From Streptomyces griseus subsp. griseus (GTDB lineage: Bacteria > Actinomycetota > Actinomycetes > Streptomycetales > Streptomycetaceae), in assembly GCF_000720255.1 (NCBI RefSeq), contig NZ_JOJE01000062.1, positions 1 to 36,120 of the forward strand: a DNA stretch of 36,120 nt, read 5' to 3'. The translations under genes and the position numbers were made by a program. Below are positions 754 to 3,827 of this stretch, piece after piece. Below the pieces are notes generated by a model. That model saw nothing but the letters and a program-made list of their open reading frames with translations, was not told the DNA's origin and searched no databases. Position 1 is the stretch's first letter, and each line of letters opens with the position of its first letter.

Positions 754-2412
754 TCAGGGCCGCGCCAGCAGCCCGCCGAGGACCTGCCGGAGCGTCGACT
801 CGGGGTCCCGGACCGTGACCAGGGAACGCCAGGCGACGAAACCGTCGGGACGGACGAGCACCGCGCCCTCGGCTGTGACGCCGTGGAGTTCCGACCAGTC
901 CGTGTCGCCCTCGGGCATCAAGTCGGCGTCGGTGCCGTCGCCCACCCGGTACGAGGTGAGCGGGACGGACAGTTCCGCGGCGACGCGAAGGGCGGCCTCG
1001 TGCCATCCGCTCCCGGCGGTGGCGTCGCTGAGGAGGACCAGGGAGCGCTCGTAGAGGTCGAGGGTGGAGACCCGCTCGCCCCGGTGGCGCAGCCACAGGT
1101 GCGGTGCCCTGCTGCCGGGCTCCCCCGTCAGGCTCAGCCCCTCCGGGACGACCGGGGTCTCGGGGTCGGCGCCGACGACCGCGCCCTGCGGATACCGGTA
1201 GCCGAGGGCCACGTTGAGGATGCCGCGCTGGGGGCCGCCGCCACCGGTTCCGGGCGCCGGGGCGAAGCCGGGGTGGCTGTGCTCGACCGACCGGGCGGCG
1301 GCGCGGGCGCTGGTCGCCTCCGCGACCGGGCGGCGCTCGGCGTCGTACGTGTCCAGCAGGCCCTCCCCCGCCCAGCCGCCCAGCACCGCGGCCAGTTTCC
1401 AGGCGAGGTTGTGGGCGTCCTGGATACCGGTGTTGGAGCCGAACGCCCCGGTGGGTGACATCTCGTGGGCGGAGTCGCCGGCCAGGAAGACGCGTCCCGA
1501 GCGGTAGCTGCGGGCGACGCGCTGGGCTGCGTGCCAGGGCGCCCTGCCGGTGATCTCGACGTCGAGGTCCGCGACGCCGACGGCGCGGCGGATGTGCTCC
1601 ACGCACCGCTCGTCCGTGAACTCCTCCAGGGTCTCGCCGTGTTCGGGGTGCCAGGGGGCGTGGAAGACCCAGTTCTCCCGGTTGTCCACCGGCAGCAGGG
1701 CGCCGTCGGCGTCGGGGCTGGTGAGGTAGCAGACGATGAAGCGACGGTCGCCGACCACGTCGGCGAGGGCACGGGAGCGGAAGGTGACGCTGACGTTGTG
1801 GAACAGGTCGCCGGGACCGCTCTGTCCGATGCCGAGCTGTTCGCGGACGGGGCTGCGGGGGCCGTCCGCGGCGACGAGGTAGTCCGCGCGGAAGGTGGTG
1901 TGATCGCCGGTCTCACGGCTCTTGACGACGGCGGTGACGCCGTCGCTGTCGGCGTCGAACGACATGAGTTCGGTGTGGTAGCGCAGATCGCCGCCGAGCT
2001 GGCGGGCGTGGTCGAGCAGGACGGGCTCCAGGTCGTTCTGGCTGCACAGGCACCAGGAGCTGGGGCTGAAGCGGGCCAGTCCGTTGCCCGGGTCGATCTG
2101 CCGGAACAGCCACTCGCCCGCGTCGCCGACCAGGGTGGGCGTCTGCAGGATGCCGTGGTTGTCGGCCAGCGTGGCCGCCGCCTCGTGGATCGCCGGCTCG
2201 GTGCCGGCGACCCGGAACAGCTCCATCGTGCGGACGTTGTTGCCGCGGCCCCGCGGGTGGATGGAGGTGCCGGCGTGGCGCTCCACCAGGGTGTGCGGCA
2301 CCCCCAGCCGGCCCAGGAACAGCGAGGTCGACAGGCCGACCAGGGAACCGCCGACGATGAGGACCGGCACCCTGTGGGTCTTGTTGTCGGCCTGTTCGGC
2401 TCTTGAGTTCAT
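754..2412 (-). CDS. FAD-dependent aromatic hydroxylase (polyketide/spore-pigment type)
   Basis: Predicted flavoprotein monooxygenase of 552 aa in the PF01494 (PheA/TfdB) family, the group containing aromatic-polyketide hydroxylases. Visible motifs are the N-terminal dinucleotide fold ([12 protein letters not shown], then VERH), the segment [19 protein letters not shown] typical of the polyketide hydroxylases, the DG motif ([14 protein letters not shown]), and the GD motif ([15 protein letters not shown]) that binds the FAD ribityl chain. A C-terminal thioredoxin-like extension from about residue 400 is normal for the family. ATG at 2412 was chosen because GGAGG lies 6 nt upstream; a longer reading from 2484 has no such support. 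It is divergent from a cupin gene, an arrangement resembling whiE ORFVIII and the whiE operon of spore-pigment clusters. Its substrate is probably an aromatic polyketide, but no PKS gene is present here. Confidence 0.87.
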
Positions 2413-2671
2413 CTCTCGCCTCCAGCATGTCGTGTCCGCCGAATCGGCCGCGTGCGGCACGGCCTGGCCCTTGATGCATGCCACCCGGGGCGGACGGCGG
2501 CTCAGGCTTCACCCGCTTGACGCGCCTGGTTCGCGGTGTTCCCGGGCACGACCCACGATCGTCGTGACGCGTTCACGAGGAACAGGTGTGCACCCCTGTA
2601 CGTCCGCCTCCCTCCCCTCCCCCTTCCTCTCTCGCCCTCCTCTCCCGCTTCTCGTCCTCGGAGTGACTGAC
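2413..2671. promoter_or_regulatory. Divergent promoter region with inverted repeats and a pyrimidine tract
   Basis: This 259-bp gap separates the divergent hydroxylase and cupin genes and must hold both promoters. It contains a perfect inverted repeat CACGA-TCG-TCGTG (2554-2566), an imperfect palindrome GTGACGCGTTCAC (2564-2576), and a dyad from 2583 to 2598 with CAGG and CCTG ends. From about 2600 to 2660 the plus strand is almost pure C/T and would be part of the cupin leader. Convincing -10/-35 pairs were not identified, and the protein that would bind the dyads is unknown. Confidence 0.45.
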
Positions 2672-3091: not shown

Positions 3092-3098
3092 GACGCAA

Positions 3099-3132
3099 CG
3101 AGCCCCACCCCCTGATATGGGGGTGGGGCTCG
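3099..3132. terminator. Hairpin terminator between the cupin and tRNA-like genes
   Basis: A perfect 14-bp inverted repeat (arms 3099-3112 and 3119-3132, loop TGATAT) starts 7 nt after the cupin stop. It also lies just past the 3' end of the minus-strand tRNA-like gene, so it can terminate both transcripts. Confidence 0.85.
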
Positions 3133-3139
3133 CATCCGG

Positions 3140-3209
3140 AGCGCCGGGCAGGCCTTGCACCTGCATTTCCCCGCAGGAAGCGGGGCGTCTTTCCTTGGAC
3201 CACCAACGC
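3140..3209 (-). tRNA. Atypical tRNA-Gly(UCC)-like gene
   Basis: Read on the minus strand, 70 nt fold into a full cloverleaf. The acceptor stem is 7 bp (GCGTTGG/CCGGCGC, two G-U pairs) with discriminator T. The D arm is short (GTC/GAC) with a loop keeping AAGGAA. The anticodon stem is 5 bp (CCCCG/CGGGG) with loop CTTCCTG, which places UCC at 34-36. The variable loop is 4 nt, and the T stem is 5 bp (GCAGG/CCTGC) with loop TGCAAGG. G1-C72, C2-G71, G3-C70, U73, C35 and C36 are all glycine identity elements. Unusual points are G instead of psi-U at 55, a pyrimidine at 37, and no encoded CCA (the 3' flank reads CCG). It may be a specialised or weakly translating tRNA, or a decayed copy. Upstream sequence overlaps the kinase promoter region. 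Confidence 0.68.
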
Positions 3210-3284
3210 GCGGCACCGCCACCGGAGTTCCGGCGGCCTGCTCAAGATCAAGCCTACCTCATCCTCGTGGGTACGCTGACCGGA

Positions 3285-3827
3285 ATGACGACTCCTCCCT
3301 CCTCCACCCGGCTGGTGATCCTGCGCGGCAACAGCGCGTCCGGGAAGAGCTCGGTGGCCGCCGGACTGCGTGCGCGGTACGGACGGGGCATCGCCCTGGT
3401 GAGCCAGGACGTCCTGCGCCGTGAGGTGTTGCGCGAGCGGGACATCCCCGGCGGCGCCAACATCCGCCTGATCGACCTCACCGTCCGGCACGCCCTCGAC
3501 CACGGCTTCCACACGGTGCTCGAAGGCATCCTGTACGTCGCGCACTACGGCGAGATGCTCGCCGGGCTGCTGGCCGACTACCCGGGTCGCAGTCACTGCT
3601 TCTACCTGGACGTCCCCTTCGAGGAGACCCTCGTCCGGCACGCGACCAAGCCGATCGCCGACGAGGTCGGCGCGGCCGAACTGCGCTCCTGGTACCGGCC
3701 GTCGGACCTGCTGCCGGGCGGTGTGGAGACCGTGGTCCCGGCCGACAGCTCGCTGTGCGCGACGATCGACCGGGTGATGCGGGCGTCCGGTCTCGACGTG
3801 TCCGCCGAGGCGCCGAGCGGCACCTGA
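3285..3827 (+). CDS. P-loop kinase-like protein (AAA_33 / zeta-toxin-like)
   Basis: A 180-aa single-domain nucleotide-binding protein. The N-terminus has a beta-strand plus Walker A, VILRGNSASGKSSVA (about residues 11-24). It is followed by LVSQDVLRREVL, which in this fold positions the phosphate acceptor, and by a lid-like Arg-containing C-terminal half. The family includes zeta toxins, chloramphenicol phosphotransferase and small-molecule kinases; the acceptor substrate cannot be told. No antitoxin-like small gene precedes it, which argues against a classical epsilon/zeta module. ATG at 3285 fits the fold; the frame is open further upstream but would run into the tRNA-like gene. It converges with the TetR gene, whose stop is 10 nt away. 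Confidence 0.75.
   Translation: MTTPPSSTRLVILRGNSASGKSSVAAGLRARYGRGIALVSQDVLRREVLRERDIPGGANIRLIDLTVRHALDHGFHTVLEGILYVAHYGEMLAGLLADYPGRSHCFYLDVPFEETLVRHATKPIADEVGAAELRSWYRPSDLLPGGVETVVPADSSLCATIDRVMRASGLDVSAEAPSGT

Follow-up and report, generated by a model that had tools for sequence, protein, structure and literature searches.

A dispersed tRNA-Gly(UCC)-like element of Streptomyces with a constant glycine identity set and a variable anticodon loop

A tRNA-Gly-like gene in the window

What is the role of a gene that can be drawn as a complete glycine tRNA and carries a G where the T loop should have its U55? The question is raised by a tRNA-Gly(UCC)-like gene in a stretch of 36,120 nucleotides from Streptomyces griseus subsp. 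griseus (NZ_JOJE01000062.1), hereafter the window. The gene occupies 3138..3209 on the minus strand, with tRNA positions 1-73 at 3209-3140 and encoded C74 and C75 at 3139-3138, and is one of three copies in the source genome. A preliminary description had placed a cloverleaf at 3140-3209 without giving a strand; this is borne out and equals positions 1-73 of the minus-strand gene. The glycine identity elements that it listed (G1-C72, C2-G71, G3-C70, U73 and C35-C36) were all read in the window copy, as were G55, a pyrimidine at position 37 (U37), a short D loop and the lack of a full CCA, U73 being followed by CCG. The anticodon loop, CUUCCUG (3174..3180, minus strand), has seven nucleotides including U33 and U37; its anticodon UCC occupies 3178-3176, and C32 and G38 are able to pair. 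In the T loop, UGCAAGG (3153..3159, minus strand), G55 replaces U/psi55 and U54, C56 and A58 are retained; U8-A14, A15-U48, G18G19 and U54-A58, read from the sequence, are also kept.

The minus strand folds into the cloverleaf at -34.7 kcal/mol (z -2.0; 9 of 200 shuffles were equally good), and the plus strand of the same stretch gave no cloverleaf (z -0.46). The proposed check with gene finders gave a divided answer: ARAGORN calls a tRNA-Gly(TCC) at 3138-3209 on the minus strand, and the Rfam tRNA model yields no match to the window gene, either at the gathering score or at E<=5. When the source genome was searched with RF00005, 66 tRNAs were matched, none of the three element copies among them. 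A canonical tRNA-Gly(UCC) is also among the tRNAs of this genome, so decoding does not depend on the element. The sole Rfam match at E<=5, to b55 at window 3094-3146 (18.1 bits against a cut-off of 70, E 1.9), sits on the terminator hairpin and is probably due to chance. The tRNA-like gene on the minus strand is confirmed as real.

Signals of a separate transcription unit surround the window copy. A -10 box, TAGGCT (3251..3256, minus strand), spans positions -47 to -42 relative to the 5' end of the tRNA and would place the transcription start near 3243-3246, and a 5' leader hairpin, CCGCCGG-AACT-CCGGTGGCGG, was read at 3216..3236 (minus strand). A terminator-like hairpin of 14 bp with a 6-nt loop follows at 3099..3132 (minus strand), which is also downstream of the convergent gene for a cupin protein (PF07883; 2672..3091, plus strand). 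On the other side lies a divergent gene for a P-loop protein with a weak AAA_33 match (26.7 bits, cut-off 27; 3285..3827, plus strand). Neither neighbour is thought to be part of the unit.

Distribution in Streptomyces

The preliminary description had suggested a search of other Streptomyces for the same gene, and this search found near-identical copies and, across the family, compensatory changes in the stems. A 90-base DNA query matched 17 genomes of the 61 searched; every one of these belongs to the 37 Streptomyces in that set, the source genome included. Identity was 95-100% at 26 of the 29 listed places, and most matches started and stopped at the tRNA ends or a few bases from them, the core being almost constant and the flanks varying between copies. 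A covariance model of the element, R1, matched 181 of 246 Streptomyces genomes at E<=0.001, of which 137 had strong matches (E below 5e-15) and 44 a weak best match of about 40-50 bits; with strict filters and 20 candidates scored in each genome, these searches may have missed some copies. The five weak matches whose sequence was read are a second noncanonical tRNA-Gly, described below. The highest count for one genome was nine matches (G245), of which eight strong ones were listed, per-genome counts including weak matches.

Within a sample of the class, 16 of 28 Streptomyces genomes matched R1 strongly, and the 15 matching genomes outside Streptomyces were all weak (31-50 bits), the three that were checked being ordinary tRNAs. 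The element occurs in the laboratory strain Streptomyces griseofuscus DSM 40191 (L133), in at least one Actinacidiphila record (among the 80 listed of 120 matches) and on two Streptantibioticus plasmids. Altogether, 70 of 72,556 plasmid records carry it, at 136 places; among the listed annotated matches no annotated feature lay under a plasmid copy, in a table that carries no RNA genes. No match was found in the phage records searched, nor in the viral contigs searched with the exact pattern. Presence rises with genome size (9.07 Mb with the element against 7.95 Mb without, p=1.5e-11), from 29% of genomes smaller than 7 Mb to 88% of those of at least 10 Mb, a trend as for accessory genes. Two or three copies stand within about 1-3 kb of each other in S. 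mangrovisoli (L148), S. populi (L104) and contig G119:C4 (L301), and the multi-copy genomes G232, G260 and G115 have several copies near chromosome contig ends.

Conserved cloverleaf and glycine identity

The 303 loci collected gave 211 distinct copies, 209 of them full and 198 with flanks; because 121 of the 209 full copies lie in loci retrieved with an exact core pattern, core conservation is biased upward in this set. Nearly every copy appears to be a unit of its own, with a -10 box, leader hairpin, core and terminator-like hairpin. The motif TAnnnT was present at -60..-31 in 202 of the 209 full copies, usually at -47, compared with 3 in a control stretch at -160..-131, and in 84 of the 88 copies found without the exact core pattern. 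Leaders folded at a mean of -15.2 kcal/mol, against -10.0 when shuffled. The 50 bases downstream of the core folded below -20 kcal/mol in 207 of 209 copies (mean -33.5, against -16.7 kcal/mol when shuffled, where the shuffle average fell below -20 for 16% of copies).

Covariation was scored in two alignments. Among 18 aligned copies, 98.4% of cells were paired and four pairs carried double changes, against 0.6 in shuffles. A diversity set of 31 representatives (28 distinct sequences, the alignment gap in the anticodon loop being placed by hand) had 552 of 560 pair cells standard and double changes in 7 of 20 pairs, a count made without a shuffle control, for which the 18-copy alignment serves. 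The divergent copies fall into three clades, A, B and C, which preserve the cloverleaf through double compensatory changes. The minimum-energy fold was the cloverleaf for one representative of each clade (L284 of A, L287 of B and L290 of C) and was not a cloverleaf for L295, a divergent clade B copy. ARAGORN called tRNA-Gly in none of eight clade B and C copies; one clade C copy (L268) is overlapped by a tRNA-Leu call, probably a miscall. A related form of 74 nt at G157:C41:16946-17019 (L289) has a longer D loop and the T loop UGCGAGC, and no promoter was obvious by eye.

Bacterial glycine identity is given as G1-C72, C2-G71, U73, C35 and C36 (PMC9976931, excerpt). Across the 28 distinct sequences of the diversity set, U73, G1-C72 and G3-C70 are constant and C2-G71 is present in 27, the lone exception being one C2-A71; all 28 have CC within the anticodon loop. 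The loop itself is variable. Fourteen sequences have seven nucleotides (CUUCCUG in 10, CUUCCCG in 4) and fourteen have six (CUCCAA in 5, CAACCG in 4, CAGCCG in 3, CUGCCG in 2); clade A, which includes the window copy, has the 7-nt loop with U33 and UCC, and in clades B and C the loop is six nucleotides long. UGCAAGG is the T loop of 27 sequences and UGCAAGA that of one, and the D loop AAGG (G18G19) is retained in 27. Pair 49-65 is G-C throughout, and pair 51-63 is A-U in 24, A.G in 4 and never G-C. The canonical tRNA-Gly genes read in the source genome, with anticodons UCC, GCC and CCC, carry G49-U65 and G51-C63, both of which are named as strong pairs for EF-Tu (PMC4052509, excerpt). Two hallmarks of an elongator are missing, with G55 instead of U55 and no RF00005 match to any of the three own copies. 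Fixed glycine identity together with a variable decoding loop would be expected of a tRNA selected for charging and released from decoding. Each of 23 Streptomyces genomes has one GlyRS locus over the cut-off.

Non-proteinogenic RNAs of this general kind are known. A tRNA-Gly(UCC) for the pentaglycine bridge has been described in Staphylococcus aureus and S. epidermidis (Giannouli 2009 and Stewart 1971, as given in PMC4052509, PMC8007984 and PMC3399842, excerpts), and in S. aureus three tRNA-Gly with changes at 49-65 and 51-63 are considered to evade EF-Tu and to serve cell-wall synthesis (PMC4052509, PMC8007984, excerpts). The Bacillus cereus pseudo-tRNA, tRNA-Other, is likewise a tRNA-like RNA with an extra-translational role, and unlike the element it has a Trp anticodon, is poorly charged with lysine and lies beside an island (PMC3399842, excerpt). 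Against the canonical Streptomyces tRNA-Gly(UCC) (L062 in the source genome), the element has the same glycine identity set and likewise U73 followed by C with no full CCA, whereas the canonical gene has the T loop TTCGATT, G51-C63 and A37-A38. The likeness to the staphylococcal RNAs that the preliminary description had drawn holds in part: both have glycine identity, an altered T loop, A51-U63 and UCC (in clade A for the element), and both are extra to a canonical tRNA. It fails at G18G19, which the element keeps and which is UU or CU in Staphylococcus, and the element further differs in G49-C65 (A49-U65 in Staphylococcus), in the 6-nt anticodon loops of clades B and C, and in being dispersed, multi-copy at many sites and carried on plasmids. 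The staphylococcal T loop reads GUGC, and the likeness is one of an altered loop.

Dispersal and neighbouring genes

The 198 flanked copies form 118 site clusters, of which 93 are singletons. At the 11 sites shared by 4-18 copies, core identity averages 95-99%, against 45-78% for terminators and 52-95% for leaders; two of the sites, where the leader and the upstream gene likewise exceed 92%, are recent. Cores differ by a mean of 1.9 bases within a genome (57 pairs) and 9.3 between genomes (3429 pairs), as counted in 84 copies of 52 genomes, the latter figure being raised since divergent genomes were fetched on purpose. Only 1 of the 52 genomes holds two clades. Of the 21,188 pairs that match, 13,921 have nothing but the core in common, 715 are homologous from promoter to terminator (over 35-109 bases before the core and 30-89 bases after it, where homology stops), 77 look orthologous and 6,475 are of other kinds. 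This pattern suggests that the unit may duplicate while everything but the core drifts. For an empty site, the flanks of the window copy matched 161 of 199 genomes; among the 150 matches listed, the window alone spans both flanking genes, so that these gave neither an empty site nor a target duplication.

Genes beside the element are mainly site-specific. The window's own neighbours were scanned against a family library, and those of other copies were clustered and read by eye. No common partner gene was seen around 29 loci or 198 copies, and the 30 largest neighbour families, judged by eye, gave no common partner, toxin or other. The largest of these, named by reading sequences without a database, are an 85-aa gene beside tsaD (18 copies), an LCP-type protein (11), groEL (5) and mdh (5). 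One called gene overlaps a copy among the 198 with flanks. Flanking genes mostly face the element, the upstream gene being co-oriented in 122 of 194 cases and the downstream gene opposed in 126 of 191. Four plasmid regions compared had no adjacent gene in common. An FAD-dependent monooxygenase lies at most 8 kb from copies in two of these four (L226, L227) and also in the window (754-2484); this family, common in general, is near 4 of the 29 loci. On an S. phaeochromogenes plasmid (L224, 10818-19370), the copy adjoins DUF2397, DUF2398, SbcC/MukB-like and DUF2399 genes, an arrangement which we take to be a Wadjet-type plasmid defence.

Possible function

The reading that we lean towards, with little more than even confidence, is that the element encodes a dedicated glycylated, non-decoding tRNA that would donate glycine outside the ribosome. 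The element would be transcribed from its own promoter, its leader and trailer removed and its CCA completed, and the cell's GlyRS would then load the RNA with glycine. The anticodon arm and T arm would exclude it from translation, including by escape from EF-Tu, and the Gly-tRNA would thereby be free for non-ribosomal glycyl transfer to a peptidoglycan branch, a lipid or a secondary metabolite. Transcription, processing, charging, EF-Tu escape and the glycine acceptor are all steps that we infer. Gly-tRNA-dependent antibiotic enzymes, DhpK and Orf11, exist in Streptomyces (PMC12945691, excerpt). Against such a carrier stand the 7-nt loop with U33 of the window copy, the departure from the staphylococcal pair at 49-65, the non-cloverleaf fold of L295 and the patchy presence (137 of 246 genomes), which is tied to genome size and argues against an essential housekeeping step. 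The preliminary description had put forward a Fem-type glycine bridge as an attractive possibility, a link that found no support: FemAB genes are in all 246 Streptomyces genomes with or without the element, their number is not associated with it (3.71 matches per genome with, 3.54 without, p=0.75, where matches are pieces, mostly two per gene, and at most seven candidates were scored per genome), and no common partner was seen by eye among the 30 largest neighbour families. Across the class FemAB is found in 138 of 296 genomes, wider than the tRNA element.

Other explanations account for some of the same observations. The element may be a decoy or regulatory RNA, with GlyRS, a tRNA-modifying enzyme, an anticodon nuclease or a glycyl-tRNA-acetylating toxin as its binding partner; the real tRNA-Gly would then be spared or tuned, and the element would have no part in glycine transfer. 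We consider this unlikely, although it is the strongest of the competing proposals. Many GNAT toxins target Gly-tRNA-Gly (PMC9177977, excerpt), the acceptor features G71 and U73 read by the toxin TacT are retained (PMC9976931, excerpt), and the element is carried on plasmids and has an accessory distribution; yet no toxin or other shared neighbour family was seen by eye, and a decoy for an anticodon nuclease should retain the anticodon loop, which varies here. For the regulatory role that the preliminary description had also raised, no positive support emerged: none of 21 genomes has a T-box over the curated cut-off, and all 21 have weaker hits, that of the source genome at C1:383643, away from glyS at C13:231363. 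This is weak evidence, as actinobacterial T-boxes may score low. Still less probable is a tRNA-derived mobile repeat that spreads from promoter to terminator like eukaryotic SINEs, with no host benefit. The many singleton sites, the 715 promoter-to-terminator pairs and the small differences within genomes would agree with it, whereas compensatory changes, and a glycine identity that stays constant from clade to clade, require selection acting on the RNA, and the 13,921 core-only pairs are the outcome expected of constraint on the core alone. No direct repeat of at least 10 bases flanks the three own copies, no terminal inverted repeat was found around the unit apart from the terminator and, in the window and L031, a single weak and distant pair, and some sites have copies common to several genomes.

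An unusual tRNA-Gly(UCC) that does translate GGA/GGG codons is very unlikely. Clade A, with its 7-nt loop, U33 and UCC, and the acceptance of the window copy by ARAGORN speak for it, against which stand the 6-nt loops of clades B and C, the pairable C32-G38, G55 and the existing canonical tRNA-Gly(UCC). To a decayed tRNA, a chance fold or an integration site we attach almost no probability. Decayed copies do occur, and in one locus (L057, 7977-8032) the 5' part of the copy does not match, probably a decayed element; however, covariation, conservation, and promoter-like and terminator-like signals in nearly all copies contradict decay or a chance fold, and the absence of a match in phage records, or to the exact pattern in viral contigs, argues against an integration site. 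The element is not the decayed tRNA that the preliminary description had kept as its alternative: glycine identity is retained, and decoding features are not.

Returning to the non-decoding glycine carrier, a broader version is possible but doubtful: a mobile tRNA-derived unit on chromosomes and megaplasmids could carry a GlyRS-charged, ribosome-excluded tRNA as a portable glycine supply, whose clades left decoding differently and kept the identity code. How aminoacyl-tRNAs leave the ribosomal route for enzymes of the cell wall and of antibiotics is described as unclear in most instances (PMC4052509, excerpt), and a natural tRNA family in which the charging code is preserved while the decoding loop varies makes this question directly testable in Streptomyces, major antibiotic producers. 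A bacterial tRNA gene here behaves like a dispersed repeat, with an unusual spread through genomes; the titles and starts of abstracts listed contained no report of this element.

A second noncanonical tRNA-Gly

A second noncanonical tRNA-Gly(UCC) was noticed in the source genome at G000:C36:61655-61727 (L092, L314) and elsewhere (L255, L273, L296-L298). Its T loop is UGC[A/G]AU[U/C] on a bulged T stem. Like the element, the own copy has G55 (T loop UGCAAUU), C32-G38 and, under a bulged pairing chosen by hand, A51-U63; unlike it, it has the bulged T stem, a different body sequence and mostly a place beside tRNA-Gly(GCC). It stands just upstream of tRNA-Gly(GCC) in five of the six copies examined; the remaining one, L273, has none within its 3 kb. 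L296 and L298 are called by ARAGORN, which misses the own copy. A model of this RNA, R2, scores at least 97 bits in all 28 Streptomyces genomes sampled from the class and no higher than 75 bits in the others, and the second tRNA-Gly may represent a housekeeping counterpart to the dispersed family.
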